A stretch of DNA of 64,000 nucleotides from Vitis vinifera (lineage: Eukaryota; Streptophyta; Magnoliopsida; Vitales; Vitaceae). Shown piece by piece: positions 33,701 through 63,168 of the stretch (positions within the stretch are counted from its first letter, which is position 1; the number at the start of each line of letters is the position of its first letter). The stretch spans positions 2,681,001-2,745,000 of the forward strand of contig NC_081817.1 of NCBI RefSeq assembly GCF_030704535.1, read 5' to 3'. The position numbers and the translations under genes were made by a program. Under the pieces are notes generated by a model. It saw only the letters and a program-made list of their open reading frames with translations. It had not been told where the DNA came from and did not search any database.

Positions 33701-36700
33701 AATTAAAAAAAATCCTTTCAAGTCAACTAATAAGAAACATATCTTCCATTGATTTCTCAAACTATACATCTTTTCCCCTACTTTCCATTATATCATCCTT
33801 TTAAAGCCCTCCACTCACACTGAAGCACCCCTCACCACTCTTTGTTTTATTATAGATCTTGAATGCACAACAATAAACCATCTCAATCAATGCTCCTTTT
33901 TTCATGTGTTCTTTCTTATTCATAGACTAACTCTTACATGTTCTTTCTTTGTTTTTGACCCAAATTCTAGAACATAAAATCTTTTGATTGTTAAATATTC
34001 TGGACAGTAAACCAAGTCTTCACTCATTAAAAATTGTTTCCTTTTAAACATTGGTAAAAAATAATTTAGGAAGCATACATTCATTTAACTCACTGAGCTC
34101 TAATTTCTACATGATGCAAATTCCTCAATTTCTATAGATTTGCGTATTTAACAGAAATGACATAATGTTAGTTCCATTATGGTATTAATATATACTTTTT
34201 GGAGCTGACCAATATATCCTTATCATTTGCCTATAAAATATAAATATATATAAATGGTATGTCATACTTCTTAGTTAGGATTGAAACTTCATAATTGATT
34301 CTCCATGGGTTTCCTTAGCTAAAATCCAATATAGTTGAATTCTAAGTTCAACTTTTTTTTTTTTTTGATAGGTAAATACAGATTGTATTATAGTTGAATT
34401 CTAAGCTCAACTAATGCGAATATATTGATTTTTATGCCTAACATTTGAGAAAACAAATACTACATATACAATCATATCTTAAAACCAACAGTAAATCATC
34501 AAGGCATCCCTCACTACCTCTATTAACATTCTTCCTAACCTTCACTCAAGGCTAGTTCCAAAGACATGTTACTTATCTGCCTGTCATTCTACATAACAAC
34601 ACATGGCCAGTTTCTTTCTCAGACACATAATCGACCATCAATGTGATGAAATATTTACTGTTAGGTATCTCTTGGTCATAAATCTTTAACAATTATACTT
34701 TTCACTCATAAATGCCTAATATTACTATACAATGCATTTATTCTGTTTAATGCCTTAGTATCTTAATCTTTTTTATTCTAAAGAAACATCATCCATGGTA
34801 TTCACCTAGCACTTCTTCCTATTCTTGCTAATTAAACCTTAAGTCACCAACAAATAACAAGACAGAGCTCTCACTTGTACAAACCTAGTAATGTCATACA
34901 TAGCCCATGCAGAAGGGTAAGACTTAAAAAGCTCAGCATAATATGTGTTGAAAGTCGAAACTCACTTCTTCTTTTTCTTTTTCTTTTTTTCTTTTCTTTT
35001 ATATATATTATGAGTGCCTATGCGAAGGGCCACTCTCCCTGATTGTTCTCAGGGTAAGAACAGTTGCAACATGCCTATATTTCTTCATATCATATGCATG
35101 CATGTATGAAATATGTACAAGACTCATGTTCTTGCTTAGAAAATGTTTATCTTTGCTTGATCAATTCCAAATTCCCTTCATTCAATGTCATTAGTATTCC
35201 ACTCATAAGCAAAGTGATCACCTATCAAGTTCCACTTTCTCTGTGGTGTATTTTCTGTTGTCAGATTTATTTGAACCCAAAAAAGGGAAAAGAATAAATT
35301 TAGCATAAGAAGTAGGTGTATTTCTTATCGTAAATTTATTTTCATCTTTCTCTTTACATATTTCATATGGCTTAGGGACATATTTGTTGTTTTGATTCAG
35401 TTAAAAACGAGGTGCTTAGACAACAAGAGGCTCATGTTCAACATTTGGCATCATATAAGTAACTGCTTCAGATTTTTTGTCACCTGAAAGACCATCTTTT
35501 TTGTCTTGATTTGATTGAAAACAAGGCACTGAGATGATAAGACGCTCATCTCCGACATTTAGATTTAAGGGACTGTTCTATCATAAAAGAAAGTCTATAT
35601 TGTCGTTACTAAAGCAGAGCAAAGCAACATGTTGACATTGGAATCAACAAGAAAAATACCCTAAACATACCTGCGCTCCCTTTCTGCAAGTGTATGTTCT
35701 AAAATCACAATATAAGCCTGGTCAGTTGTAGTAGTGTTTGCCAGATAATCCTGCCATTAAAAGTTCAAGTTGTAATATTACAACAATTGAAATGCATCTA
35801 GATAATGCTTGATGAAGGAGCCACACTTATATGTCAATATCAGAGTCAAATGGGTTTTGGGTTAGCAGGCAATAAGAGTTAGATAGAGTCATATAAGAAC
35901 TGAATGATGCTTTACTTTGCATCAAATACACGTGGGAGTACAGAAACCTATCCTGCAACCTTAATCACTATATATCTGAATGGTAATTCAAATTGAGAAC
36001 AACAACTAAATTTATTTGAACTCTGAATGTTCAGTGCATGTGGCACTTAAACACCCAGCCAAATTTTGAATGGCTTCAATTAAATGAACGAACTCATGAT
36101 TCAAGGGTATGTCTTCATGTTTAATGAAATAACAAAATGACTTCTCGAGAAACACTTACAGTTATAATTCAAATAAAGAAAACTAAGCAATAAATCAAGT
36201 CCATTCTCAATTGCCGCAAATGGCAATACTTTTTTCTTGCATGAATAAGAAAAGCTGTCTCTACTTTCTGGAAACAAAAAAATGGTCAAATTAAATTGAA
36301 GACGAAAAGAGTGAAAGTAGACCTAAGTAAATAAACATATAAACCTTACAAATGAATAGGTCACTCGTCAAATACTCCCATGATTCAAACAACGGTAAGA
36401 CAACAAAATATCAAAACAAAGCCACCAATTATTCACAGGAAATGGCCCACTTTCAGCACTAATACTCTGTTTGGTTGCAGGGAAAATGTAGGACGTAGAA
36501 GAAATCAAATTCTTCAAAATTTCAGATATTTCATTAATTCGCATCTGAAAAAACAAATACCCCCACTCAACCTGCCCCCAGGAGAACTATTTCCCTAGTT
36601 GAGTTAAATTTGAAATTTAAAACCGAACAAAAAGAAAATCCTTTTAGAAACTATAACATCAAAAAAAATTCAACGATTTCATTTTCCTTCTCTTCCCGTA

Positions 36701-36969
36701 TTCCAAATCAAAACCAAACCCCAAATTCCCAACCCGCCACACCGAGATCTGAGAAATCAACAAACCCGAAGAGTCCGCGAGGCCTCGGACGCAGCCGCGG
36801 AGGGGGTCCCGTGGAGCGCGGCCGACGCCGCAACAGACAGACAATCGGCGACAGCACGCCTCAGCGGCTCTGGCGGCTTCCGCAGCGACGAAGATCGAAG
36901 TCTCGACACCGCCCCTAGCTGCAACCTCGCACTGCCGGGACTCCGCGAGGAGCTGAAGCTGGTCGACAT
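12317..36969 (-). CDS. Conserved plant protein of unknown function, 1205 aa, 17 coding exons
   Basis: Exons: 36766-36969, 35671-35750, 33184-33234, 29543-30064, 29155-29412, 27461-27526, 26494-26673, 25803-25854, 25436-25720, 22895-23005, 22373-22564, 21440-21715, 18776-19393, 13524-14029, 13347-13407, 13177-13245, 12317-12403. They join in phase (3618 nt with stop). The N-terminus is Arg/Ser-rich (SRLRSSSLRKPPEPLRRA). A helical stretch and a Ser-rich linker follow, then long all-helical, ARM/HEAT-like sequence. The most conserved blocks are KLGVEGIGEILKRS, RHNIIRWGFLFVLERLLMR and ALGVAVGSKGRGNLPGATSD; the end is NPYLQMRGIIQLSNDLG. I recognise it as the family of an uncharacterised Arabidopsis protein of nearly the same size (At3g12590, from memory). 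No catalytic motif or convincing membrane segment is visible. The intron between exons 15 and 16 has a GC donor. Introns 3 and 13 are packed with retroelements. Confidence 0.88.
14348..17540 (-). mobile_element. LINE (L1-type non-LTR retrotransposon), degenerate, in intron 13
   Basis: On the minus strand, broken frames give reverse-transcriptase blocks in the right order: RRRNSLVRIKTNGNW (about 17100), KGFRPISLVGSLYKLLAKVLAN (16652-16740), YKLDIKNAYDHVNW (about 16480), an LLFAYDTLIF version of the catalytic box (about 16190), then a zinc-binding RT-associated domain (WVPPKVGFFAWEATWNK, 15100-15160) and WKERNNKMFD (about 14840). The 3' end is an A tail, the T-run at 14348-14361. Frameshifts and stops show it is dead. 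The canonical catalytic F/YxDD reads FAYD plus T, so the second Asp is lost. The 5' part beyond about 17540 is missing or unrecognised. A MITE interrupts it at 14584-14794. Confidence 0.85.
14584..14794. mobile_element. MITE nested in the LINE
   Basis: Terminal inverted repeats of about 40 bp: the left end reads GGTGGTGTTTGTTTTTTTGG, and the reverse complement of the right end reads GTGGTGTTTGTTTTTTGGAT. Both continue into similar ATAGAAAA sequence. Recognisable LINE sequence flanks it on both sides, so it inserted after the LINE did. It is about 210 bp with no coding capacity; the GGTGTTTG-type ends suggest a hAT- or Harbinger-like parent, which I cannot decide. Confidence 0.7.
17776..18263 (+). 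mobile_element. Second LINE 3' fragment, opposite orientation
   Basis: The plus strand encodes a LINE C-terminus: GPLCLFWSVWKTRNKIAFEG (about 17938-17997), then LLWSESKLF and a stop at 18121. A 3' UTR and a poly(A) run follow at about 18248-18262 (CTTATCAAGGAAAAA). It is 5'-truncated at about 17776 and lies head-to-head with the larger minus-strand LINE in the same intron. About 240 bp between them cannot be assigned. Confidence 0.75.
18729..18770. repeat. TA-rich microsatellite beside the exon 13 donor
   Basis: An interrupted (TA)n run starts a few bases downstream of the donor of exon 13 (GT at 18775-18774 on minus). It is likely length-polymorphic. Confidence 0.8.
19938..20099. mobile_element. 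Candidate MITE, about 160 bp, in intron 12
   Basis: The left end reads AATGCTAGTTATACCACCAC; the reverse complement of the right end reads GGATGGTGCTACATGCACCA then CCACTTTTACCA. The shared inverted core is ACCACCACTTTT(T)TACCA. No coding capacity. I could not fix the target duplication by eye. Confidence 0.55.
23006..25435. other. Intron 9 (2.4 kb) of the 1205-aa protein gene: repeats, no exon found
   Basis: It contains a 32-bp perfect direct repeat at 23535-23566 and 23590-23621, an A-rich stretch (24005-24077) and a block rich in CCTTAAGGC/GCCTCAAGG motifs (about 24775-24915) that looks like a decayed transposon. A 69-codon minus-strand open frame at 24261-24470 is noted in the findings. 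The exons on either side join in phase without it. Confidence 0.55.
26784..27041. mobile_element. Candidate MITE in intron 6
   Basis: The left end reads TTAGCGCCAGTTTGGATACA then TTTCTT. The reverse complement of the right end reads CTAAGTGTCCTTTTGGATAC then ACTTCTT. These are imperfect terminal inverted repeats of about 27 bp around an AT-rich, non-coding core of about 200 bp. Confidence 0.55.
27527..29154. other. Intron 5 (1.6 kb) of the 1205-aa protein gene
   Basis: Exons 5 and 6 join in phase across it. I see no coding frame, no repeat with clear ends and no RNA gene. Around 28130-28640 the base composition is less AT-biased, with some transposon-like phrases, but nothing I can name. Confidence 0.4.
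30520..31030 (-). mobile_element. LINE fragment in intron 3
   Basis: The segment at 30690-30750 (plus: TTTTCAAAACTTCACCCTCA and the next 40 bases) closely resembles 32965-33010 inside the larger LINE fragment and 15480-15530 of the intron-13 LINE. This is the region upstream of the zinc-binding domain. The orientation is the same (minus); ends are unclear and no frame survives. Confidence 0.5.
31280..31440 (-). mobile_element. LINE 3'-end fragment with A tail
   Basis: A 17-base T-run (about 31281-31297 on plus) is followed by GATAGGTAAACAAGAATTAT. This TTTACCTATC-A(n) end on the minus strand is shared with the elements at 32004 and 34353 and is similar to the LINE end at 14348. About 140 bp of 3'-UTR-like sequence follows. 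No clear target duplication. Confidence 0.5.
32004..33108 (-). mobile_element. 5'-truncated LINE next to exon 3
   Basis: The minus strand gives a LINE C-terminal region: GSGIRVKFRKDRWCNEEPL (about 32935-32990), LNDWELADMEWFLYLLQG (about 32745-32800), a zinc-binding domain segment with ESIDHILLHCDEARVLWW (about 32425-32480), then a 3' UTR and a tail (T-run about 32004-32015). Frames are broken. The fragment ends about 75 bp from the donor of the 51-bp exon 3 (33184-33234). The flanking sequences CATATGATTCTTT and CACATGATCTTTG could be a degraded target duplication. Confidence 0.8.
34353..34389 (-). mobile_element. Minimal 37-bp retro-insertion (LINE tail) with 22-bp target duplication
   Basis: A 37-bp insert (T14 followed by GATAGGTAAATACAGATTGT and ATT) is flanked by direct repeats at 34331-34352 and 34390-34411, which begin ATAGTTGAATTCTAAG and differ at one base. 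The insert is the 3'-terminal TTTACCTATC plus poly(A) end seen on the LINE copies nearby, so this looks like target-primed reverse transcription that aborted almost at once. It lies in intron 2 of the 1205-aa protein gene. Confidence 0.8.
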
Positions 36970-37230
36970 CGTCCGAATCTATCAAAAACCTAGAATTCGA
37001 GGCAACCGAGACTCCCCTCTCTCTCCTTTCCTCCCTCTTCTCTCTTCTTTCTCTCCTTCGGCTTTTGCATTCACACAAGTCACAAGTCACAACCAACAGT
37101 TTAGGCTTCGATCGTTCAAAATGTAGAGAGAGATTATAGAGTGTATATGGTGTTTTGAGGTGTAGAAACTCTACAAATTCGGGAGTGCTGTGTGTCTATT
37201 AGCTGTTAGTCGAAAGCCTTCTATTTTTTG
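36970..37230 (-). promoter_or_regulatory. 5' leader and proximal promoter of the 1205-aa protein gene
   Basis: Upstream of the start codon (36969), the minus strand has a GA-rich tract (37008-37056: CT-rich on plus), typical of plant 5' leaders. It then becomes ordinary AT-rich sequence. The left border of the segmental duplication (37231) lies about 260 bp upstream of the start codon, so any promoter element further upstream is also present at 43218 onward. Confidence 0.4.
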
Positions 37231-37259
37231 AGATTTAATTAGCTGGCATGCGCTAGAAT

Positions 37260-40200
37260 TCGTAGTTTTTACTCTGAGATTTTCCCCTTTCGCCATCTGT
37301 CCTTTCTATTTTTACCATTTTCAAATATTTGGAAGGTAAATCGGATATTTAATTATCAAAGACAATATTATTTTTTTTAGACAAAATCTACTTAGTGTTT
37401 ATTTTTCAAAATTATATGATTTTATAATTAAATTTTTTTAACTTAGGTTCCTAAACGTAAATTTTTTCTTTTATATATTGAAATAATTTAGGATATATTT
37501 TATAACTATTTTTTAAAACAGTTCGTTTTATATTTTGTAAATCAAAAGTATATTTAAAAATTTAAAATATTTTTTAATATATTTTCATATTTTTAAATAT
37601 ATTTTAAAATTAATTTTTATGTCTAATATTTTATTTGTGATAACTCTACATGTTTGTACAATTAATTTTTAAAACAATCCTAAAAAAATAAGTAAAAATA
37701 AAGAAAACGATTAAAATATATTTTTTTAAATCATTTTAAAAATATAAAACTGAAAACAATTTTTTATTATCAAATATATTTAGATTTATTATAAATAATA
37801 ATAAAAATTAATTACCAAACAGACCTTTGTTCTTTTTGTCTTCCCGTTATCTCACATTGGCATGATTAAATATAATTTCTATTTTCCGTTAGTGAGGTTT
37901 GAAGTTTATAATGACACGCATGAGTCTTAAATTAAATTACGTTTGAAAGCAATTGTTTAAAATATTTTTATATTTTTATAATTGAAAAAAAACATGTTTA
38001 ACAAATAAGACAAAAAAAAAATACAACTTTTTGTATACTTATTTCATTCACTCCTCTTACAATTTTGCTTGAATACGTCTTAGTTTTATTAATTTGAAAT
38101 TTATTATTTTTTTCATTTGTTATTTTTATTATTTTTTTAATTCAAAATAATAGAGATATTTGATCAAATTTCAAGTAAAACAAAAAAGTATTTAACCAAA
38201 AAAAAAAACCTAGAAGAATCTAGTGAAATTAATCTAATTTTTTTGTAAAATCATTCTAAAAATTGAATAGTTTTTAAACCAATATTTAAATGTTTTTAAA
38301 CATTTTTTTTAGATGATAAAAAATACAAAGATATATTGTAAAAAAAATAAAACTTATACATGAGTGTTTATTAATTTCATAAAATAAAAATCTACAAATT
38401 TATTTATTTTTCATATGAACAAAATTTTACTTTAAAAAATATAATTGAAAATTATTGGAAAATTTCAAAAGGGTTTCAAGCTTCCAATTCAAATTCCTTT
38501 TCTATTTCAAACAAACAAACACTTGATTGGAAATTAAAGCAAAACAAAAAGGAATCTTAGATTAACTTTCTCCTCATTTGACCAAAATACATTTTTCTCC
38601 AAAGAGTGGAGGAGAGAATATTGGGAATTTATTATAATTCCATTAATTAATGTGACATTTATTATAATTTACTAGGAATTTATTTTTTCTATTGTGTCCT
38701 CCACCCTCCCTTTTCATTCCAAATTAGACTTGTCTTTTCCTAAAAGTGTTCCTTTGATCTTCATGCTAACTATGGATTGAAAATTGATGACATTAAAAGC
38801 CAAAAAATCCAATCCATGGAATCCACTAATTTGTAAATAATCAAAGCAATTTGTCATTTCTAACCCTTGGCGCCAACAAAGTTACAGTTAAAAGGTAACC
38901 CCTTTTTATCTTGTTGGAATCAAAACAATGGAGGTTTGTCCAAATTTTCCATCTCACTTTTTAATGTTCCTCTCCAAATTTCAAAAGCAGCAGCGATTCC
39001 CACCACTTTTTTTTTTTTTTTTTTTTTAATTTAATTTATTTTTTATTTTTTATGTTTTTCAACTGTATTAGTTTTGAATGGTAATTTTTTTCCAATATTT
39101 TGAAAATATTGAAAAAAAAAAACCTCATTCATATTCGCGGTTTGCTTTTCCTCCTATGTTTGTTTTTTATTTATTTTGATTTAATTATAAATATAACTTC
39201 AAATTGAATAATAATTAATAGTGTTAAGTAGAGAAAATTCAATATGTTACCTTTTTTTATTAAAAATAAATAAATATTTTGATATTTTTTTATACAATAA
39301 AAATTTAATAATAAATCATGAAATAAAGTATAAAAACAAATAATTTAAAATAAAAATAAATTATTTTTAATTTAAAATTAAAAAATGCCTAAAGGGAAAG
39401 AACATAACATATTTTCTTATCATATATTAATTATTTTTAACTATTATGAAAATGTTGGAAATTGACCAAAATATTGAGGAGAATTCAATGATATCACATG
39501 GGTACGGGAGGGATTACTTTGGACCATGTGGTAGACAGGATATTGACAATTCATTTTAATAGGTTTTATTTAATTTTTATTATTATAGCTTGTATACGTG
39601 TCAATATCCCATTAGACAACATGTGAAGGTATAATACCATGGTTTGACCCAAATATTGATGTTTCCATTTTATAAAAAAATTTGACAAACATAAAAATTT
39701 AATTAAAATTCATAAAAATATTTAAAAAAAAAAAAAACAATAATGATGCATATTAAAGAACATGATATATTTACAAGCTTAAATTTTTAGAAAAATGGGC
39801 CCTTTTAACCGAAATCTCTTTGGAATTTGCATTTTTTAATTACAAAAAATATCCAGTTTTAAATAATTTGCATTTGAATTTCCTTTCTTTCCTTTCTTGA
39901 AAAAATAAAGCCAAAAATTCAGAACTAAATCAAACCAATCCTACAGCCAAAATTAGAATAAAAATCCTTTATACCATATATTACAATATATGTTTTTGGG
40001 GATTTTGAATTTGCCTTATTGATAATTAGAGTTTTCTTATGGCCAATAGAGTTTTTAAAAAATTGACGATTTTAACAAAAATCTCTTTGGAAATTGCATT
40101 TTTTAATTACAAAAAAAATATCAAGTTTTAAATAATTTGCATTTGAATTTCCTTTCTTGAAAAAATAAAGCCAAAAATTCAGAACTAAATCAAACCAATC

Positions 40201-40280
40201 CTACAGCCAAAATTAGAATAAAAATCCTTATTGATAATTAGAGTTTTCTTATGGCCAATAGAGTTTTTGACTTTTGTCCA
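37260..40280. other. AT-rich intergenic sequence downstream of isomerase gene A
   Basis: There is no coding frame. It holds long A/T runs (for example 39009-39027), and at about 37490-37830 a block whose ends (TTTATAACTATTTTT and the reverse complement of AATTACCAAACAGACC) are loosely inverted. The same block lies at 43443-43830 in unit B with clearer ends, so it may be an old MITE that predates the duplication. The rest is simple AT-rich DNA. Confidence 0.45.
39795..40275. repeat. 267-bp tandem duplication 3' of isomerase gene A
   Basis: The block with ATCTCTTTGGAATTTGCATT, AAATTCAGAACTAAATCAAA and ATGGCCAATAGAGTTTTT occurs twice in a row (starting near 39795 and 40062) but only once in unit B (about 45775-46040). 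It arose in unit A after the segmental duplication, or was lost from B. Copy 2 lacks about 45 bp, the TTTATACCATATATTACAAT region. Confidence 0.8.
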
Positions 40281-40290
40281 TTGTTATAGC

Positions 40291-41013
40291 CTAGAGCCGT
40301 GTGCGAGTGTGACTCACTTCTACGGATTCATCACATCCAACCTTATCAAACACATCGGCTAACATGCGCATCCGTATCTGAGCGTACACGTGTCCATCCC
40401 ATTTCCTCCCAACCAACTCCTCTCCTAATCGGATGGCCGCCCTCACAGTCTCCTCCGTGCTATTGTGCGCGGAGTCGATAATACCCCAATTCAGCGCATC
40501 ATGAGCCGTCAATTTAGCGGCTCGAAGCATGAGCTCGCGTTGAGACCTCGGCGCTCCGATCTTGCTTCGAATCAGCGCTACGAACCACCAATCGGGAATC
40601 TTGATCCCAATGTCGAGCTCGGGCATGTAGATAAAGCCGCGGTCATTCCTCATGAGGACGTAGTCGTGGCTAAGCGCGATAATCGCCGCGGCGGCTGAGC
40701 AGTGGCCAGAGATGGCGGCGATAGTCGGCATCGGAAGGGAAATCAGATCGGCGACGAGTGATCTAAGCTTTGAAGACATGAGCTTGGACCGATCGAGGAA
40801 GACGCCGGAAGCGGAGGCCCACGCGAGATCGTAGCCATTGGAGAAGAACTTGCCCTCGGCGGTCGTGATGAGAGCAAATGACATTGAACTCTCGGCTCTT
40901 ACTCGGCTTAGAGCGGCTGAAATGGCATCGAGTAGGGTGGGATTTAGCCGGTGCTCGCCGGGGCCGGTGAGCGTGAGGATGAAGATGTTGCCGCGCTTCT
41001 CCAAACTGCACAT
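40291..41013 (-). CDS. Enoyl-CoA delta isomerase, peroxisomal type, copy A
   Basis: Intronless, 240 residues, crotonase fold. In peroxisomes this family shifts the double bond of 3-enoyl-CoA to 2-trans-enoyl-CoA so that unsaturated fatty acids can enter beta-oxidation. Family signatures: MCSLEKRGNIFILTLTGPGE at the start, ITTAEGKFFSNGYDLAWA, LPMPTIAAISGHCSAAAA, LSHDYVLMR and LGEELVGRKWDGHVYAQIR near the end. Oddities compared with copy B: the usual YMSELDIGLKIPDWF reads YMPELDIGIKIPDWWF, with Ser to Pro and one extra Trp. In both copies the Gly expected after GHxSAA is Ala. The C-terminus is TRTRL, not a canonical peroxisomal SKL. The frame is intact, so it may be functional, but constraint looks relaxed. 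Dense antisense frames over it are shadows. Confidence 0.85.
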   Translation of the reverse strand: MCSLEKRGNIFILTLTGPGEHRLNPTLLDAISAALSRVRAESSMSFALITTAEGKFFSNGYDLAWASASGVFLDRSKLMSSKLRSLVADLISLPMPTIAAISGHCSAAAAIIALSHDYVLMRNDRGFIYMPELDIGIKIPDWWFVALIRSKIGAPRSQRELMLRAAKLTAHDALNWGIIDSAHNSTEETVRAAIRLGEELVGRKWDGHVYAQIRMRMLADVFDKVGCDESVEVSHTRTRL

Positions 41014-41072
41014 CGCTCTCCCTCACTGATGCTCGAAGAGTAAAGCCATAGAGAGCCTCTTCTTCATTTCAA

Positions 41073-42058
41073 GGATGGAAATCCTACCTCGTAAAGTCCG
41101 ATAAACTTAACTTATTTCAATCAATATCAAGATAAAAGTTAAAAGTTAAAAGAAATAAAATAACAAATATATTTTTAATAAATTATTTTTATAAATATTA
41201 TATAAAAAAAATTATTAATATTTTCAATTGTTACTCAAAATGTTTTTTAAAAAGTAATTTTAAAATATTTGTATTTTTTCAAAAATAACATAATTTTTAA
41301 ATAAACCATTAAAAAATAGAGGATGAAAATCCTAGTAAAGTCTGATAAACTTAACTTATTTGAATCAATATCAAGATAAAAGTTAAAAGTTAAAAGAAAT
41401 AAAATAACAAATATATTTTTAATAAATCATTTTTATAAATATTATATAAAAAAAAAATTATTAATATTTTCAATTGTTACTCAAAATGTTTTTTAAAAAA
41501 TAATTTTAAAATATTTGTATTTTTTCAAAAATAGCATATTTTTAAAATAAACCATTAAAAAATAGAGGATGGAAATCCTACCTTGTAAAGTCCGATAAAC
41601 TTAACTTATTTGAATCAATATCAAGATAAAAGTTAAAAGTTAAAAGAAATAAAATAACAAATATATTTTTAATAAATTATTTTTATAAATATTATATAAA
41701 AAAAATTATTAATATTTTCAATTGTTACTCAAAATGTTTTTTAAAAAATAATTTTAAAATATTTGTATTTTTTCAAAAATAGCATATTTTTAAAATAAAC
41801 CATTAAAAAATAGAGGATGGAAATCCTACCTTGTAAAGTCCGATAAACTTAACTTATTTGAATCAATATCAAGATAAAAGTTAAAAGTTAAAAGAAATAA
41901 AATAACAAATATATTTTTAATAAATTATTTTTATAAATATTATATATAAAAAATTATTAATATTTTCAATTGTTACTCAAAATGTTTTTTAAAAAATAAT
42001 TTTAAAATATTTGTATTTTTTCAAAAATAGCATATTTTTAAAATAAACCATTAAAAAC
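41073..42058. repeat. Four-copy tandem array, about 247-bp unit, upstream of isomerase gene A
   Basis: The copies start at 41073, 41321, 41567 and 41815 with GGATGGAAATCCTACCT(C/T)GT (copy 2 variant GGATGAAAATCCTA) and end near 42058. Units are nearly identical and AT-rich, each with TTAAAAGTTAAAAGAAATAA. Unit B of the segmental duplication has a single, diverged copy (46841-47066). The array begins about 60 bp upstream of the start codon of copy A, so it forms its promoter region. Confidence 0.92.
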
Positions 42059-42565
42059 TATTTTTTATTAAAAGTTAGTTCAACGTTTTCTGAGAGTTTC
42101 GAAAATCATTTTTTGTGCTTTACTCTTTTAAAGAAGAGTCTCAAAACTATCAAAATAACCTTAGTGGGCTGCTCATTAGCTGAAATGGGCCGAGTTGAGG
42201 ACAATGGCTTGATTTGGGCTTCAACATCCTGGACGTGGCTCTCATGTTAATTGTTCTTAAACCCAAATCACATAATATCTAACATGGGAGAGAGAGAGAG
42301 ATGGGAGGAAGGGAGTCCTTACAGTTTGCATGTGGTGACCTCACTCGAGCATATTGCTCCATCGGGATTGATGACGACGTCGAACATCCAGATCATATTT
42401 CTTCTTTATAATGCACATTGTTGTTTACGGTTAATATATGCGTTGTTTGTTTTATTGTTCCATATGTTTTTTTAATCAATCTCCATTTTTTTTTTATGAA
42501 AAAATTTGGAAATCTTCCGTGGATATTTCAACCACTATCCATGTTGTCAACAATGATAGTATTCT

Positions 42566-42692
42566 TCAATGGTCATCAGTTCGAGTCCCCTCAGGGCCAC
42601 TGAAGGTTTACCTGATCATTAACTTCAAGGTCCCATGAGATTAGTCGAGGTACACGTAAGTTGGTCTGGATATTCACAGTTATAAAATAAAA
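42566..42692 (+). mobile_element. 5'-truncated tRNA-derived SINE with 14-bp target duplication
   Basis: The sequence GGTCATCAGTTCGAGTCCCC carries a good RNA polymerase III B box (GTTCGAGTCC). It continues with GGGCCACTGAAGGTTTACCT, GATTAGTCGAGGTACACGTA and a short A-rich tail. Flanking repeats AATGATAGTATTCT (42552-42565) and AATGATAGTGTTCT (42693-42706) differ at one base. The A box is missing, so it is 5'-truncated. The corresponding site in unit B is deleted, so relative age cannot be read directly. Confidence 0.75.
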
Positions 42693-42706
42693 AATGATAG
42701 TGTTCT

Positions 42707-42794
42707 CCGCCAACTCCTCAGTTCTAACCAGGCTGTCCTCATGGTCTCGTCCGCGCTATCATGTGCCCAGTCGATGATCCCAAAGCCAGCGCAT
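42707..42794 (-). pseudogene. Remnant of a second isomerase copy in unit A
   Basis: The minus strand reads ALALGIIDWAHDSADETMRTAW-like sequence (GCGCTGGCTTTGGGATCATC), matching the ALNWGIIDSAHDSTEE region of the intact isomerases. It is cut at 42794, where the sequence changes abruptly to intron DNA of the zinc-knuckle gene (42795 onward). Confidence 0.7.
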
Positions 42795-43217
42795 GTATTT
42801 TCAATTCCTTCATCTTCATGTGTCCTTTTTTATTTTTTACTTTTGCATGAAATTTTGAAGTTACAACAAGAAAGCATCCACCCAAATTTAAGCCATCTAC
42901 ACATGCATACACATTGAGTTTCCAGAACTAGAAAAGTACACTGCAATTTTTCAATGGTTGTAGAGAAATTAGTCTCTTCATGTCACCAATCTGAGGCAGG
43001 CATACACAATGTGAATACATGATAAAAGCATAAGTTTTATCTTTTAGCACTACAAGCACCCGAACATAAGTGATTCCTAGTAATAAGCAAGGCCCAAGAA
43101 GAAAGAAAGAAGGAAAATTGTATCTAAGAACAAGTGAGAAATGGAACAGACAAAAGAACATAATCATCACTAAGAGCACACTTTTCAAACAAGAACCGCA
43201 ACGTGTAACTATAACAA
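42795..43217 (-). pseudogene. Orphan intron fragment of the CCHC zinc-knuckle gene
   Basis: Nearly identical to 49835-50268, which lies inside an intron of the intact zinc-knuckle gene. It has no exon sequence. It ends at ...GTAACTATAACA, exactly where unit B starts (43218). Confidence 0.85.
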
Positions 43218-43239
43218 AGATTTAATTAACTGGCATGCG

Positions 43240-46040
43240 CTAGAATTCGTAGTTTTTACTCTGAGATTTTCCCCTTTCGCCATCTGTCCTTTCTATTTTT
43301 ACCATTTTCAAATATTTGGAAGGTAAATCGGATATTTAATTATCAAAGACAATATTTTTTTTTTTAAGACAAAATCTACTTATTGTTTATTTTTCAAATT
43401 TATATGATTTTAGAATTAAAGTTTTTAAAATTAGGTTCCTGAATATAAATTTAGGATTTGTTTGATAACTGGTTTTCAAATTTGTTCTTTTTATATTTTG
43501 TAAATCAAAAATCTATTTAAAAACTTAAAATATTTTTTAACATTATTCTAATATTTAAAATATATTTTAATTTTTTTTATATCTAATATTTTATTTGTAA
43601 TCATTCTTTTTTATAATTATTTTTTAAAACAACCCTTAAAAAACAAATATAAACAAAAAACAAGTAAAAATAAAGAAAATAATTCAAAAATATATTTTTT
43701 AAACACTTTTGTTTTCTGTTATTAAAAATATAAAACAGAAAACAATTTTTTTGTTGTCAAATATATTTTTATTTATTATAAATAATAATAAAAATATTTT
43801 TAAAAAATAATTACCAAACATACTTTTGTTTTTTTTGTCTTTTCATTATCTCATATTGGCATAATTAAGTATAATTTCAATTGTCCCGTTAGTGATGCTT
43901 AAAGTTTATAATGCCACGAATGAGTCTAAAATTAAAGTATGTTTGAAAGTAATTGTTTAAAATATTTTTATATTTTTAGAATTGAAAAAAAAAACAAATT
44001 CAAAAAACATGTTTAACAGATAAAGACAAATATATATATACAATTTTTGTATACTTAATTTCATTCACTCCTCTTACAATTTTTCTTGGATGTTTTATTA
44101 ATTTGAAATTTTGTTATTTTTTATTTGTTATTTTTTCTATTTTTTTTCATCTAATTCAAAATAATAGAGATATTTGATCAGATTTCAAGTAAAAAAAAAA
44201 AAAGTATTTAACCAAAAAAACTAGGCGGAATGGAGTGAAATTAATCTAATTTTTCGTAAAATCATTCTAAAAACTAACTAGTTTTTAAACCAATATTTAA
44301 ATATTTTTAAACATTTTTTTATTAAGAGCGATGATAAAAAATACAAAGAAATATTGTAAAACTTGAGTGTTTATTAATTCAATAAATAAAAAATCTAAAA
44401 ATTTATTTATTTTTCAAATGAACAAAATTTTAATTTTGAAAAATAATTGAAAATAATTAAAAAAAAACATTATTGGTAATTTTCAAAAGGGTTTCAAGCT
44501 TCCAATGCAAATTCCTTTTCTATTTTAAACAAACAAACACTTGATTGAAAATCAAAGCAAAACAAAAAGGAATCTTAGGTTAACTTTCTCCTCATTTGAC
44601 CAACATACATTTTTCTCCAAAGAGTGGAGGAGAGAATATTGGGAATTTATTATAATTCCATTAATTAATGTGACATTTATTATAATTTACTTGGAATTTA
44701 TTTTTTCTATTGTGTCCTCCATCGTCCCTTTTCATTCCAAATTAGACTTGTCTTTTCCTAAAAGTATTCCTTTGATCTTCATGCTAACTATACATTGAAA
44801 ATTGATGACATTAAAAGCCAAAAAATCCAATCCATAGAATCCACTAATTTGTAAATAATCAAGCAATTTGTCATTTCTAACCCTTGGCGCCAACAAAGTT
44901 ACAGTTAAAAGGTAACTCCTTTTTATCTTGTTGGAATCAAACAATGGAGGTTTGTCCAAATTTCCCATCTTACTTTTTAATGTTCCTCTCCAAATTTCAA
45001 AAGCAGCAGTGATTCCCACCACTTTTTATTTATTTATTTTATTTTATTTTATGATTTTCAATAATATTAGTTTTGAATGACATTTTTTTTTCCAATATTT
45101 TGAAAATATTGAAAACAAAAACCTCATCCGTACTCGAGGTTTGCTTTTCCTCCTATGTTTATTTTTATTTAATTTTAAATATAACTTAAAATTGAATAAT
45201 AATTAACAGTGTTAAATAGAAAAAAATTGATATGTTATTTTTTTATTAAAAAAATTAAATATTTTGATATTTTTTATCCAATAAAAAATTTATAATAAAT
45301 CATAAAATAAAATATAAAAATAAATAATTTAAAATAAAAATAAATTATTTTTAATAAAAAATAAACACCCTCTTAGCCTAAAGTTGGGAAAGAACATAAC
45401 ATATTTTCTTATTAAATATTAGTTCTTTTTAATTATTATGAAAAATGTTGGAAATTGACCAAAATATCCAGGAGAATTCTATGAAGGAGGGATTATTTTG
45501 GACCATGTGGTAGATAGGACAGTGACAATTCATTTTAATAGGTTTTATTTAATTTGTATCATTATAGCTTGTATACGTGTCAATATCCCATTAGACAACA
45601 TGTGAAGGTATAATACCGAAAAGTTGCTTTTAGGTACCATGGTTTGACCCAAATATTGATGTTTCCATTTTATAAAATTTTTTTGACAAACATAAAAAAT
45701 ATATAAAAAAATAAAAAATAATAATACATGTTAAAGAGCATTATATATATAAATCAAAATCTTACGAGTTTAAATTTTTTAAAAAATTGACGATTTTAAC
45801 AAAAATCTCTTTGGAAATTGCATTTTTTAATTACAAAAAAAATATCAAGTTTTAAATAATTTGCATTTGAATTTCCTTTCTTGAAAAAATAAAGCCAAAA
45901 ATTCAGAACTAAATCAAACCAATCCTACAGCCAAAATTAGAATAAAAATCCTTTATACCATATAATCCAATATATGTTTTTGGGGATTTTGAATTTGCCT
46001 TATTGATAATTAGAGTTTTCTTAAGGCCAATAGAGTTTTT
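43240..46040. other. AT-rich intergenic sequence downstream of isomerase gene B
   Basis: This is the counterpart of 37260-40280. There is no coding frame. At 43443-43830, TTTAGGATTTGTTTGATAAC and the reverse complement of AATTACCAAACATACTTTTG are imperfect inverted ends of a possible old MITE. Nothing else is recognisable. Confidence 0.4.
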
Positions 46041-46055
46041 GTCCATGGTTATAGC

Positions 46056-46781
46056 CTATAGCCGTGTGCGAGTGTGACTCACTTCTCCTACGGATTCATC
46101 ACATCCAATCTTATCAAACACATCAGCTAACATGCGCATCCGTATCTGAGCGTACACGTGTCCATCCCATTTCCTCCCAACCAACTCCTCTCCTAATCGG
46201 ATGGCCGCCCTCACAGCCTCCTCCGTGCTATCGTGCGCCGAGTCGATAATACCCCAATTCAGAGCATCATGAGCCGTCAATTTAGCGGCTCGAAGCATGA
46301 GCTCGCGTTGAGACCTCGGCGCTCCGATCTTGCTTCGAATGAACGCTACGAACCAATCGGGAATCTTGAGCCCGATGTCGAGCTCGGACATGTAGATAAA
46401 GCCGCGGTCATTCCTCATGAGGACGTAGTCGTGGCTAAGCGCGAGAATCGCCGCGGCGGCTGAGCAGTGGCCAGAGATGGCGGCGATAGTCGGCATCGGA
46501 AGGGAAAGCAGATCGGCGACGAGTGATCTGAGCTTTGAAGACATGAGCTTGACCCGATCGAGGAAGACGCCGCCGGAAGCGGAGGCCCACGCGAGATCGT
46601 AGCCGTTGGAGAAGAACTTGCCCTCGGCGGTCGTGATGAGAGCAGATGACATTGAACTCTCGGCTCTTACTCGGCTTAGGGCGGCTGAAATGGCATCGAG
46701 TAGGGTGGGATTTAGCCGGTGCTCGCCGGGGCCGGTGAGCGTGAGGATGAAGATGTTGCCGCGCTTCTCCAAACTGCACAT
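46056..46781 (-). CDS. Enoyl-CoA delta isomerase, peroxisomal type, copy B
   Basis: Intronless, 241 residues, about 95% identical to copy A by eye. It keeps the family-like YMSELDIGLKIPDWF motif, whose Glu aligns with the conserved acidic position of plant isomerases, as well as FFSNGYDLAWA and LSHDYVLMR. The oxyanion-hole region is GHCSAAAA instead of the usual GHxSAAG. The end is GEVSHTRTRL, so peroxisomal import would depend on a weak TRL-type signal or another route. The start ATG is the one matching family N-termini (MCSLEKRG). Its upstream region has only one copy of the 247-bp unit (46841-47066), so its promoter differs in spacing from copy A. Likely the more functional paralogue. Confidence 0.87.
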   Translation of the reverse strand: MCSLEKRGNIFILTLTGPGEHRLNPTLLDAISAALSRVRAESSMSSALITTAEGKFFSNGYDLAWASASGGVFLDRVKLMSSKLRSLVADLLSLPMPTIAAISGHCSAAAAILALSHDYVLMRNDRGFIYMSELDIGLKIPDWFVAFIRSKIGAPRSQRELMLRAAKLTAHDALNWGIIDSAHDSTEEAVRAAIRLGEELVGRKWDGHVYAQIRMRMLADVFDKIGCDESVGEVSHTRTRL

Positions 46782-47321
46782 CGCTCTCCCTCACTGATGC
46801 TTGAAGAGTAAAGCAATAGAGAGCCTCTTCTTCATTTCAAGGATGGAAATCAAGTCCGATAAACTTAACTTATTTGAATCAATATGAAGATAAAAGTTAA
46901 AAGAAATAAAATAACAAATATATTTTTAATAAATTCTTTTTATAAATATTATAAAAAAAAATTATTAATATTTTCAATTGTTACTTAAAATATTTTTTAA
47001 AAAATAATTTAAAAATATTTTTATTTTTTCAAAAATAGCATATTTTTAAAACAAATCATTAAAAACTATTTTTTATTAAAAGTTAGTTCAACGTTTTCTG
47101 AGAGTTTCGAAAATCATTTTTTGTGCTTTACTCTTTTTAAGAAGAGTCTCAAAAGTCAAAACTATCAAAATAACCTTAGTGGGCTGCTCATTAGCTGAAA
47201 TGGGCCGAGTTGAGGACAATGGCTTGATTTGGGCTTGAACATCTTGGACACAAGAAGTTATACGTGGCTCTCATGTTTTTATTTTATTTTAAAATCTAAA
47301 TGGCATAACTAAATAACAATG

Positions 47322-47348
47322 TATATATATATATATATATATATATAT
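47322..47348. repeat. (TA)n microsatellite
   Basis: About 13 TA units, present in unit B and absent at the corresponding place in unit A (about 42245). Confidence 0.9.
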
Positions 47349-47734
47349 TTTAATTGTTCTTAAACCCGAATCACATAATATCTAACACGGGAGAGAGAGA
47401 GAGAGAGAAAGATGGGAGGGAGGGAGTCCTTACAGTTTGCACGTTGTGACCTCACTCTAGCATATTGCTCCATAGGGATTGATGACGGCGTCGAACATCG
47501 AGATCACAATGGGGCTCTCAGTTCCTCGTTTTCTCAACTTAATGCCTCATTGCGCTAAAGCATAAATGGAAGTCATTATTCAAACTCACATTGTTTTTAC
47601 TTTCAAAATCATATTTTTTCTTTATAATGCACATTGTTTTTTTACTGTTAATATATGAATTGTTGTTTGTTTTATTGTTTCCATATGTTTTTTATGAAAA
47701 AATTTGGAAATCTTCCGTGGTCGAAAAGTGGATA

Positions 47735-48209
47735 TTTCGACCGCTATCATGTGCCCAGATGATCCCAAAGCCAGCGCATCCCGTGCCATCAATTTGGTAG
47801 CTTGAATCAAGAGCTCGAGCCGAGCCTTCGGCCGGATTGTGCACTGAATAGCTAGAAACTTGATTCAGTTGTCCAGCTCGCTCATGTAGACGAAGCCACA
47901 GTCCTTATCGTGAGGACATAGTTGTGGCTCAGTAGGAGGCGCAGCAGAGGCATGACCGGAGACTGCCGCGATGGTGGGCATAGAAAGCCAAATGAGATCA
48001 ATGAGGACCGCTCTGAACTTCAACGCTCATTAGCCATTGGAGAAGAATTTTCCCTGGCGGCCATGATGAGAGCATTGGATGTGGAGCTCTCAGCACCGAG
48101 TCTGCCCTAGAGCCACTGAGATGCGTCTAGTAAGGTCAGGTTTAGCATGTGGGCACCAGCGCCAGCTTGTGAGGCTGAAGATGTTGTCGCACTTCTCCAA
48201 ACTGCTCAA
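47735..48209 (-). pseudogene. Enoyl-CoA delta isomerase pseudogene (second copy, unit B)
   Basis: Reading minus from 48209, TTG replaces the start ATG, then AGCAGTTTGGAGAAGTGCGA matches the start of the intact genes (SLEKRGNIF). LNLTLLDA, a truncated GKFFSNG region, MPTIAAVSGH-like, YVLMR-like and ALALGSS stretches follow with several frameshifts and internal deletions. It ends near 47735. It is much more diverged than copies A and B are from each other, so it derives from an older tandem duplication that predates the segmental one. Confidence 0.82.
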
Positions 48210-48649
48210 GACAACTTAATAATGGAGAGTGGAAGATTGATAACAATGGAAGTCAGCCATCCCCACACAGAATCCAGAGTTGATCAACTTTTGAATAAAA
48301 TCGTGTAATATTAGAGTAATCAACACTAAGCTGAATCTCAGTCGAGGGAAAATTCACACCCCCCTAAGAGGCATCTGGGAGGCAGATTCAAAATATCCAG
48401 AACGCCCATATCCAAGCCCTGAGATAATGATTTGCCATAAAGTTTTCAAACTAAAATTCATACTGAAATAGGAAGGACACCCAGCAATGGCCTTGTCTCA
48501 CTCTTTTCCATGCAACATACTACCAAGTAGCTCTATGAAAGAGGAATCAGACGCTTATACCTCTCATTTAAGATCGATCAATTCGCAATCTAAATGTATT
48601 ACAACAAAACAAAATGTAGTTCCCATGAAAGATTCCTATAAGTGGCTGG

Positions 48650-50465
48650 TCAATACCTGCGCACAACATGGTCAAACATTCGGACTGAAGGACACTCAAA
48701 TGACTGATGACCTCTCCCACCACAGTTGTTGCAGATGACAATGGATACACAGTCACGGCTGATATGGCCTGGCTGCCCACAGTTGTGGCATGTTATGTCA
48801 CGGAAAGGGCCTCCTGTCTCTGGCACCAGCCTTGATTTTGGGCACTGGCGGGCTACATGACCTGATATATTGCAGATGTTGCAGACAGGCTCATTGAGGC
48901 AGTCTCGAGCGAGGTGGCCAGTTTTATGGCAGTTGTTGCAAGCCTTCTCATTGGTGCAGTCCGCAGCAATGTGGCCTGGCTTGTAGCAGTTGTTGCAGAG
49001 TCTCGCATCATGAGCGGGTAGACCTGGGCTTGAGCAATCCCGAGCCAGGTGACCCATTTTGCCACACATATGGCACACTGGATCATTAGGACATTGGCTC
49101 GCAAGATGTCCAGACTCTTTACAGTTCCAACACATGGTTGTTGAGTTACACTCAGCAGCTATGTGGCTACAAAGGAAAACATATTAAATCAGGTTTTTGC
49201 CAGAAATCAGTTTGGTGGGTGAATCAGGGGTTAAACTATCCTGAGGAACCACCATACATGATACATCAACCAAGTATTGACATATTTTAATTCTAGAAAT
49301 TGTTCTCTCATAAAACATGTAATGTTCTAGAGAAACTAGAAGGGGAGGAATTCATCTTACCCAGGAAGGCCACAGTTGTTGCATACAGTCACATTTGGGC
49401 AATCTCTGGCAAAATGCCCTGGTCTCTTACATTTATTGCACAGATAATCTTGCCTGGAAATTAACAATATAATTGGTTGTGATAATTTAAACCAAAAGAC
49501 AGCAGCAACTAAAAGATCTTGGTTTTAACAAAGGTAGAGTCCACACATCAAGGAGACCACTTTGAGAGGAATGCATTTAGAAAATCAACATACTGGAGAT
49601 AGTAACCTCCAATGCTGCAGGCTTGGACTACCACAGACAATGTTAATGTGTTTACAAGTAGGTGTTCAATAGAATTCCAGAGGGGATTTCTTTCTCAATT
49701 TTATCTATTATAGCAGCTCTTCCAAATTGTTTAAGAAAATAATATATTTGTTAGAAAATAACCATACATTTAGGTAATTACTCCAAAGCAAGACTTGGGG
49801 ATCACATGCCCTATCCAAGTTATTCTCATCTATGGTATTTTCAATTTCTTCATCTTCATGTATACTTTTTTATTTTTTACTTTTGCATGAAATTTTGAAG
49901 TTACAACAAGAAAGCATCCACCCAATTTTAAGCCATCTACACATGCATACACATTAAGTTCCTATATATGGTGTTTTCCAGAACTAGAAAAGGACACTGC
50001 AATTTTTCAATAGTTGTAGAGAAATTAGTCTCTTCATGTCACCAATCTGAGGCAGGCATACACAATGTGAATACGTGATAAAAGCATAAGTTTTATCTTT
50101 TAGCACTACAAGCACCCCGAACATAAGTGATTCCTAGTAATAAGCAAGGCCCAAGAAGAAAGAAGGAAAATTGTATCTAAGAACAAGTGAGAAATGGAAC
50201 AGACAAAAGAACATAATCATCACTAAGAGCACACTTTTCAAACAAGAACCGTAACATGTAACTATAACATTTATGCAACATGGGCTATAAGTGTGTGTGT
50301 GTGTGTGTAGATAAAAGGAATAACAGTTAGATTTTGCTGAATTGATAAAGGAGCAAACCGGTGAACTCGATGATCCCTTGGGTAAGGTGCGTCTTGGTAA
50401 GAAGCACGGTCACTGCTACGAAGCCTCTTGGCTTGTGGTGGGCTTCTGCTTCTATCCAGAGTCAT
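48650..50465 (-). CDS. CCHC zinc-knuckle protein, CNBP/GIS2-like, 238 aa
   Basis: Coding exons 50359-50465, 49361-49453 and 48650-49166 join in phase (717 nt). The short N-terminus is Arg/Ser-rich (MTLDRSRSPPQAKRLRSSD). Nine CX2CX4HX4C knuckles follow: CNKCKRPGHFARDC, CNNCGLPGHIAAEC, CWNCKESGHLASQC, CHMCGKMGHLARDC, CNNCYKPGHIAADC, CNNCHKTGHLARDC, CNICNISGHVARQC, CHNCGQPGHISRDC and CNNCGGRGHQSFEC. The end is VVRRY, as in plant relatives. Proteins of this family bind single-stranded nucleic acid, mainly mRNA, and in yeast and animals affect translation. Knuckle spacing and number fit the plant family. An untranslated first exon ends at 51540 and joins the acceptor at 50474. Intron 1 is the site of the segmental-duplication breakpoint. 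Confidence 0.92.
50290..50308. repeat. (GT)n microsatellite in zinc-knuckle intron
   Basis: A run of about nine GT units just outside the duplicated segment, in the intron after the first coding exon. Probably length-polymorphic. Confidence 0.85.
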
Positions 50466-51539
50466 ACTGGAAACCTGTAAGTAAACTTTCTCAAATATAT
50501 GACAAAATGAAAGATAGAACACAACACTATCAGGCCCAGGAATTGCCAACTCCGACCCACCAAAAGTATCTGCTGCCTGCCTATATCACCACACAGCCCA
50601 AACCACAAACATAAATCTAAGTCAACATCCAACAACTCCAACCCAAATTACATTGAACACACTCTTAAATTCAAAAATAATAATAATACATGCACATAAA
50701 AGCATTATATTAAAAGGCAATGCCATGACAACAGAGGAAAAAGAGGAGAAGGGGCACAAGCAGGATGCGGGAAATGAAAAAAAAAAAAAAAAGATGAATC
50801 AATAATATTTTGTTCTCCACAACACAAGGAAATTAAAAAAAAAAAAAAAAACATAGATAACTGAGGAACCCAAAAGAAACTTATGTTCTTATATTTCATT
50901 TACTTCATTTAGCATTACAAACTGAACGATCACCTCAAACAAACCAAGTGGTTGTATTAGGCCCAATTGATTGAGCACTTTACTTCTCATATCTCAAACA
51001 ACAAGAAATCCACAATTAACTCTTTTAATTTCCTTCTTTCTCCACTTTCTCAGCAACCAAACAGGTGATAAATGCAAGATGCCACAATGTCCAACCTCGT
51101 ACAGAGGATTCATTAAGAACCTCAATCTCAACCTTGCTCCAATTTGATGATAATTCTCAATATTTCAAACCGTTTGAATTCAACGGCATTTACAAAACCA
51201 AACCCTATCCCTACAGTGAAAAAAAGTGCTCAAAAGAAAATAACACAACGCGTACCCAAATCAAGGTAATATATGAGCGAGTTAAACTGAACTCATGATA
51301 TTCTGTTTGGATGTCAATGAAACGCATTACAAGAAAAAAGAAATATTACAAAAAGGCCTCCCCTAGAGCGGCTGCTATAGTATTCAGAATTTCCTTTTCC
51401 TTTTTCTTTTTGCCTTTTCTTCCCGTTTCAATTCCTACTGTTTCTCAACAACCAAACAGATCGTGAAAAGAAAACATATTTCCAAAACAAATCCAAAAAT
51501 CTGTAAAAAAAAAAATAAAAGGGGGAAAAAGTAAAATAC

Positions 51540-52212: not shown

Positions 52213-55200
52213 TCACCAGCCCATCAATGTCCGTTTAACCCTATCAACAATCTGACTTCTACTTCGACTACTTGTTAATGGAAACTCAACGCTTTCTTCC
52301 AAACGGAATCTGTACACTTCCCATTCCCGATTCGACGTTGAATGCCTAACAATTTCCCCCTACAAAGCAATAAAAAAGGGAAGAGAATTTAACATCTAGT
52401 ACAATGAAAGTACCAAGAAAATCAGATTTTGAGGTTTCTTACCGAGAAAATGCATATCCCTAATGTTTTTAGAGTGCATGTAACATCATAGAAAACGCGG
52501 GGTCTTCCCTTCCCAGATAGCTCCACTGGATTGGCAACCAGGAGTTCGGCGTCTGGTCCCCTGTTGGTAATAGTAACTCGTAATGGGTGAAGCATCTCCT
52601 CCTTGAGACGAGAACACAAAGAAGCCTGATACTCTGGATCTATTATCTTTTTCCCATCTGTTTTCTGGATGAATAGATCCATATTGCGGTAGCCTTTCAC
52701 ACTTGGATTGAATCGACCATAGGCAATCTATATAATTTGGTTAACTAAGATCAATATAATTAACCATAAAGGAACAGTTATGGAAGGAAACTTGAGTGCA
52801 GTGATCCTCTTAAGATTTCCTAAGCTAAAATCATTAACCCAGTTAGCCATCAAATCTACATAGTTTTTGTTGCAAATCGAAAGAAAAGAAGGCAAACTGT
52901 CCAATGTGCATAGTCATTCAAACATTCAAGAAAGAAAGAATCTATAGCTTTAGTGGAACCAGATTAATCCATGCCCGACTAAAATTGAGTTACTAGAAAC
53001 TCTATCAGCAAATACCTGAATATTGCAGTCTTTTGAAGTCCTCATAATGTCATAGAAGAGGCCTTTTTGATCAAGACATTGTATTTGAAGCAAGGTATGA
53101 GCTGGACTCAGAAAATTATCTACAGTAATAGTGCCGTTCTCAAGTTTAGTCATATTTGACTTATTGTCTAATAGCTCAGAGCCAAATAGTTCTTCTGCAA
53201 TCTCCGGTGACAGTGAAGAGCAGCCCTGCTGACTTCTATATTCAGGCCCTGCCAACTGAATTTCACAGATGACATTAAATTCCCCCAAAACAGCAAGCAG
53301 ACGAGCACATGTGTCGTCTTGCCTCTTCTTCGTGTGTAGTAACTCCCTGAAATGATACAATAGCAAATACTAGAATTAGCCACTACTCTTTGATATATGA
53401 CCCAGTCATTAGCAATTTGCTTTCCTATCATTGTTATGTTCTGAAGACACAAACTTCTATCAATCAAACAAAGAGGATGTTGGGAAAAATAGACTGCAAC
53501 AAAACAAAGTTTAATTCCTGAAAAGACATTTACTAAGTGAGAAGAAGTAAAAAATTGTACAAGGATAGAGAAGGAACATATGAATTGGATGATAAATCAG
53601 GGACATTGCTTGCCATATGGTCAAGAACATCAGTCGTCTGTCTCTAGACAAGAATCTCACAGATAAATCAATATGGGCAGTTTACTCATAACAGATTTGT
53701 TTTTGAATCTAATTATAAGGAGAATTGTACAGTCATGATTGTTCCTTGAAAGTACCAAGGAAAGAAAAAAAATATTAAGGAAAATGATTTTCTCGTGTTC
53801 AATTTTAATATGAAAAATAACAAAAAATTAAATATAATTAAAGTTAGTTACAAATTTATGCATTTTAAAATTTCTTAATCTTTATGATGAAGAGGAAAAA
53901 TAAGTGAAATAAGTTTGAAGTAATATATAAAAATAATTTATTAACTTTAAATTTATTTTTTATTTTCCTTCACTAATTCTCTTTATTTTCTTTCCCTTGA
54001 TTATTCCGAAACCAAATATAGCCTAGAAGTTTGTCTCTTTTGCTTGTAGATTTATGGTTCCATCAAGGGAGAGTCCCACCATGTAGTCACTACAAAATTG
54101 GCAGAGATGTATTATAGTTTTACTTCTATCATCTACATCACAGCTACAAAATCCAGGATTCCTACTGCAAAAGAGCAGAAGGGAGGGAAATGCAATTTTT
54201 GTTACCAAGTTTGTAAGAACGATAGTGATTCCTAACATTGCAAGGAACAGGACTAAGAATATCCATTCAGGAGAAGATTTAGTGCCAATATCAAAGTCTA
54301 CATAACAGTGAAATCTAAGAAAATTCCAAAAATAAATTCAGAAAAAGCAATAACTATGTACAACATAGCCATGATCGTCGAAATGAAAGATTGAGCCCAA
54401 GAGAATTTCATAAAATGTCAGCTCCAATGGGAAAGAGAGAACATAAACTACAGGAACATCAAATGGAATGCAACCTAACATTGACCCAATACAGTTGACC
54501 AGCCAGCAGCCATACCGCCAATTCATGGTGATTCTTCAACAGCATACCAAGGTAAATCTTCACCCAGTGAACCTACCTAGGATTCCACTGAAATCCTAGA
54601 AGTTTAGGTTAACTCAGGAAAATAACTTTTTGAAACAAATTCAATATTTTTAGAACTTAAATAAATGGTCTCCCAGAAACGAGCCAACATGCAATACATG
54701 ATATTTTGGGTGGTGGGCTGCTTCTGTAAGAGTTAGATATAGCTAGCTGCTAAATAAGTAAGTTTGGAAAAGTCAGAGGACTACTCATTTTTGCAAAGGA
54801 AAAGCTTTACAAAAAAAGTTAAGTCATAGAAATTGATGGATCAATTATGTGGTCCACTTTTCTTTGAAATCTAAGATAGAAATTGATGCCACCTCAATTT
54901 TCTATAAATTTGCATAAATTTTTTGTTCATATAACCTATCTTACGGATATTATAGCAAATACTAACATGCCATCCGTGATGAAGAAAAGGTCCAAGACTC
55001 TGCCATCAGGGGTTGTCATCACTTTTACTCTTTCAATTGTAAACTCGAGCTCAGAGAGGACTTTGGTGACATCTACAAAAATGCAACAACCATGTCAGGT
55101 GATTTTTACATAAATCATAAAGCCAAAAATAATAAGGAATGACATTTGTAATTACCATGTAACAACCCATTTCGGTCAAGGCAAAAAAGCTTTAGCATAT

Positions 55201-62847: not shown

Positions 62848-63168
<321 letters not shown>

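Follow-up and report, generated by a model that had tools for sequence, protein, structure and literature searches.

The locus at 37231-50269 of the window, by which we mean the whole 64,000-base stretch that was analysed, raises the question of how a gene-bearing block came to lie twice in succession, with one of its limits inside an intron of a zinc-knuckle gene that is itself complete. We consider it very probable that end joining produced a head-to-tail copy of about 7 kb of this DNA and that the first of the two copies, unit A, was eroded afterwards.

Comparison of the window with itself by BLAST, with matches of at least 120 columns listed, yielded two adjacent units in the same orientation (Table 1). 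Direct matches linked 37231-40056 to 43218-46040 and 40052-41318 to 45776-47068 (both E = 0), 41836-42234 to 46852-47249, 42244-42522 to 47347-47720 (in two pieces), and 42795-43216 to 49835-50269 (93% over 439 columns, E = 0), and these matches are collinear, gaps aside, over the full length of both units. When the 100 bases to the left of 37231, 43218 and 50270 were compared with one another, likeness was seen only between those preceding 43218 and 50270; adjacent direct copies with non-matching outer flanks constitute a tandem segmental duplication. A preliminary description of this DNA had stated that the sequence from 37231 is repeated from 43218 in direct orientation, that the tail of the first unit matches the inside of intron 1 of the CCHC gene, and that about 7 kb, limited on one side by a point in that intron, was copied head to tail. 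Its coordinates proved correct, except that position 43217 has no counterpart, and the proposed copying accounts for the ordered matches. The continuous alignment between the units that it had looked for was obtained in part: the matches are direct and ordered but are interrupted where unit A lacks the sequence of B 47780-49834. This 2-kb deletion, the insert and local repeats of unit A and the uneven divergence of the two units, all described below, are additions to the preliminary description. Because unit A carries a four-fold array and is without 2 kb, a whole-unit MAFFT alignment placed the middle part wrongly, and a segment-wise alignment was used in its place.

Table 1 Features of the duplicated locus, in positions of the window
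Feature	Position	Strand	Description	Basis
Unit A of the tandem duplication	37231..43217		5,987 bp; last base is the extra A	Self-BLAST and alignment with B
Unit B of the tandem duplication	43218..50269		7,052 bp	Self-BLAST and alignment with A
A/B junction	43217..43218		ATAACA, extra A (43217), AGATTT; native ends without a common base	Three contexts compared
Isomerase copy A	40291..41013	-	Intronless open frame, 240 aa	Pfam ECH_1, E 8.8e-23
Isomerase copy B	46056..46781	-	Intronless open frame, 241 aa	Pfam ECH_1, E 2.3e-22
Older isomerase pseudogene, unit B	47743..48208	-	Two pieces, 73.4% and 64.7% identical to copy B	BLASTN; three-way alignment
Remnant of the same isomerase pseudogene, unit A	42710..42794	-	73.0% over 89 columns, E 2.7e-8	BLASTN
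Stretch of B missing from A	47780..49834		2,055 bp, between 42794 and 42795; blunt junction	Alignment and exact search of ends
SINE-like insert, unit A	42552..42706	+	127 bp (42566-42692) between 14-bp repeats (42552-42565, 42693-42706)	
248-bp array upstream of isomerase A	41072..42060		Unit of about 248 bp, present four times head to tail	TRF, 96% matches
Local tandem copies A1 and A2, downstream of isomerase A	39784..40268		A1 39784-40056, A2 40052-40268; overlap TTTTT	Three-way alignment
CCHC zinc-knuckle gene	48650..50465	-	Coding exons 50465-50359, 49453-49361, 49166-48650; 238 aa	
CCHC intron fragment, right end of unit A	42795..43216	-	Matches 49835-50269; 10 substitutions in 418 columns	

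Each unit retains one open frame of the crotonase superfamily, matching the ECH_1 profile at 81.4 (A) and 80 bits (B) against a curated cut-off of 27. The match identifies an enoyl-CoA hydratase/isomerase, a class within which profiles do not tell hydratase from isomerase. We take both products to be isomerases, and their plant subgroup and peroxisomal location are likewise our assumptions. Copy B matched 74 distinct solved-structure sequences at an E value of 0.001 or better, the top match among the 60 of these listed being 3ot6 (1.6e-10). In NCBIfam, the crotonase matches among the best 25 of 56 and of 59 all fell under the cut-off, and the CCHC exon gave no match. Between the two frames there are 20 substitutions and three insertions or deletions of one codon each (dN 0.020, dS 0.054, ratio about 0.38). 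With the older pseudogene as outgroup, five of the 20 differing sites had changed in A and six in B, the last of these six falling in a doubtful alignment at the very end, while two matched neither copy and seven were without an outgroup base. The remnant in A covers isomerase positions 515-601 and the pseudogene in B extends only up to position 555, indicating that B has lost sequence as well. Where A has the longer pseudogene sequence, B has a small inverted repeat at 47719-47742 (GGTCGAAA...TTTCGACC), which may be filler from the repair of a deletion.

The CCHC gene model has GT/AG introns and a single open frame of 238 codons. The zinc-knuckle profile scan covered its exon-3 frame, in which six zf-CCHC stretches were recognized (Pfam, E 3e-40, 135 bits against a cut-off of 20.8). 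At its right end, unit B stops inside the first coding intron, with 89 bases between it and coding exon 1, and the placement of the breakpoint in "intron 1" by the preliminary description is correct when coding exons are counted; judged by eye, the 5' untranslated part probably contains a further intron. The open frame also bears out the claim that this gene was left intact: exon 1 and the upstream DNA lie outside the unit, so that one complete gene still adjoins its own exon 1. No second copy of exon 1 appeared in the self-comparison of the window, and no CCHC exons were found in unit A. Upstream of the gene, at 52950-53366, lies part of an ACR9-like ACT-domain gene (Pfam ACT_ACR9_3rd, E 2.1e-20).

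The stretch missing from unit A takes in CCHC exons 2 and 3 along with part of the intron, as well as most of the isomerase pseudogene, and the deletion junction at 42794/42795 is without any common base. Its ends were set by exact search, as a permissive-gap alignment had misplaced the pseudogene remnant. As this gap is flanked by the intron tail on one side and by the pseudogene remnant on the other, we infer that the ancestral copied block included the 3' part of the CCHC gene.

Unit A differs from unit B in three further respects. The two 14-bp repeats that bound its SINE-like insert agree at 13 of 14 bases, in keeping with the target-site duplication of an Au-like SINE, and the 13-base 3' motif of the insert occurs only once in the window. 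We presume that the insert carries a tRNA-like box B and resembles the plant Au SINEs; a tRNA scan and an Rfam scan of the window at the gathering threshold returned 0 matches. The Au SINE is described as widespread in plants (PMC5787218). Unit B is without both the insert and its target site. The insert may therefore predate or postdate the duplication, and so may the A1/A2 repeat, of which B has a single copy (45776-46040). Upstream of the isomerase gene, B holds one 248-base unit (46840-47068). The four units of A are 0.8-3.3% apart from one another and 3.9-6.1% from the unit of B, and their closeness to one another suggests that their multiplication in A most likely followed the split. The array lies 58 bases from the isomerase A start codon.

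How the copy arose can be read from its junction. The native left end is TTTTTTG/AGATTT, the native right end is ATAACA/TTTATG, and the junction itself is ATAACA-A-AGATTT, with 0 bases in common and one A added, in agreement with the little or no homology originally described. None to few bases of homology is the mark of nonhomologous end joining (NHEJ), and a homology-free junction argues for end joining rather than crossing-over between repeats. The junction is old and small homologies could have disappeared, and a G-to-A change in the base preceding AGATTT would make the extra A an ordinary one. These bases are best read as the product of illegitimate end joining that involved about 7 kb of DNA.

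We propose that a block of about 7 kb would have been duplicated head to tail through homology-free end joining. It would have carried the isomerase gene, the older pseudogene beside it and, being limited on one side at a point within the first coding intron of the CCHC gene, the part of that gene lying 3' of this point. During or following the duplication, unit A would have lost the 2,055 bp in which every copied CCHC exon lay, and the 248-base unit upstream of its isomerase gene would have been amplified to four, with both isomerase frames remaining open. Such a duplication would be an ordinary plant structural event of a known kind, the copy being old and eroded.

A tandem copy can also be produced by unequal crossing-over between pre-existing repeats (NAHR), and the older pseudogene beside the gene means that isomerase repeats were on hand; the ends of the units, however, are not at isomerase sequence. 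We compared the stretches at the breakpoints (36231-37230 and 43218-44217 against 49270-50269 and 50270-51269, the inner 1 kb at the left breakpoint being taken from unit B only) and found in these 1-kb stretches only short, mostly AT-rich matches, none of them at the break. The best of them, an inverted match of 21 columns (E 1.4e-4), lay hundreds of bases off the breaks, and crossing-over between repeats appears highly improbable. Movement or capture of the block by a Helitron or Mutator-like transposable element would draw on a process common in plants, where 12 of 27 non-co-linear gene copies in rice were ascribed to transposable elements in one survey (PMC4812662). Here, by contrast, the copies are adjacent and direct, and no terminal inverted repeat was found at the unit ends, at which 10 of 30 bases agree; we give such an element next to no chance of having made this copy.

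The presence of the same sequence in the same order in both units is, in addition, what would be expected if the assembler had placed two haplotypes of one locus end to end. Such an artefact is improbable because the copies are several percent apart (about 2.5% to 9.5%, with a dS of 0.054 in the isomerase frames), show dozens of gaps when aligned (52 over 37231-39783) and have separate outer flanks. Furthermore, the window is free of N, the junction falls precisely within an intron, and unit A lacks the CCHC exons.

A single duplication followed by uniform drift does not predict how unevenly the two units have diverged, and this counts against our preferred explanation of a head-to-tail duplication by end joining. 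Identity along the A/B alignment, a comparison proposed in the preliminary description, proved not to be uniform, forming instead a mosaic of stretches at about 2.5% and about 9.5% divergence. Over 4,714 aligned columns with 243 substitutions, a two-rate HMM with these rates outperformed a single rate (2dlnL 65.8; the largest of 20 shuffles gave 8.9), a significant patchiness of the kind associated with gene conversion. Most of array units 1-3 of A, A 42235-42246, A 42531-42803 and the counterparts opposite them were left out of these columns, and B 45781-46040 entered twice, against A1 and against A2. High divergence was assigned to 37393-38522, 38991-39575, 39717-39832 and 42323-42424, and the low stretches in the left spacer were 37231-37392, 38523-38990 and 39576-39716. 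One of the latter, 38523-38990 (44541-45006 in B), shows about 3% divergence within a highly diverged spacer and may be either conserved non-coding sequence or a patch of conversion; a single reading frame from it, 44732-45022 in B, was compared with Pfam and had no match.

The left side is AT-rich, and divergence there drops as GC rises. AT content was rejected as the sole cause of the unevenness, since the right noncoding side was less diverged than the left in all five GC bins below 0.36, and it is retained as a partial cause. Between GC 0.36 and 0.45 the two sides were on a par (0.033 and 0.032); beyond 0.45 the left side contributes only 4 columns. The effect of side given GC reached a 2dlnL of 27.1, an optimistic value because the HMM itself supplied the split at 39833, and the effect of GC was 10.4.

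The three-way comparison of A1, A2 and B adds to this picture. Across 215 ungapped columns, A1 was the odd one in 10, A2 in 0 and B in 1, and A2 is without 48 bases that are present in A1 and B. A mutation hot spot fits poorly because the same sequence has remained nearly unchanged in A2 and B. The pattern would result either from post-duplication exchange between the two units, or from a local repeat that predated the duplication and of which one copy was lost from B. We judge the chances to be about even that the uneven divergence reflects some later exchange between the copies together with faster change in AT-rich DNA.

A particular form of exchange, which we advance only as a doubtful suggestion, would be a repair event after the duplication in which an end of A broken at 40056 re-primed on TTTTT at B 45776 and copied the B isomerase gene and its upstream DNA. 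In that case A1/A2 would be a scar, and divergence would have been reset to about 2.5% rightward, leaving much of the left spacer near 9%. The counts of odd columns are as this repair predicts. Against it, the 48 bases missing from A2 require a later loss, the left spacer includes three low patches and the right side one high patch (42323-42424), and the same A1/A2/B pattern would follow from an old local repeat that B has lost.

Elsewhere in the window, self-BLAST identified a short tandem duplication at 7736-8059 (170 columns, 91% identity). The reading frames at 15026-15403 and 16856-17239 presumably represent remnants of plant LINE reverse transcriptases, and that at 62848-63159 reads, by eye, as what we take to be histone H4. 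This frame, the ACR9-like domain and other genes recognized by eye are the grounds on which the DNA is treated as that of a plant.

Collectively, the locus offers a clear case in which a tandem copy cuts a gene in an intron and one whole gene remains. The spare CCHC part would then have been lost, while the complete gene of the block, the isomerase gene, was kept twice. The four-fold upstream array could change the expression of isomerase A, and the two isomerase genes, with their different upstream arrays, lend themselves to a comparison of expression. No long-standing question is opened by these observations.

With respect to known systems, the isomerase copies resemble the plant enoyl-CoA delta-isomerase genes of the crotonase superfamily in being intronless frames of 240-241 aa that match ECH_1. 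Exchange between plant duplicates, or concerted evolution, is the subject of PMC3924838, and the present copies likewise show patches of low and high divergence; here, however, AT content and possibly an old local repeat explain part of the pattern, and exchange is not proved. In the rice survey, 14 of the 27 non-co-linear gene copies were ascribed to end joining, the sign of which was micro-homology or none at the breakpoints, a share which shows such events to be common in plants; 52.98% of copy number variants (deletions relative to the reference) were ascribed to non-homologous recombination (PMC4812662). The present copy has in common with these plant gene copies the micro-homology or lack of homology at its breakpoints, whereas it is distinguished from them in lying head to tail, in having one end that splits a gene in an intron, and in being old and eroded.
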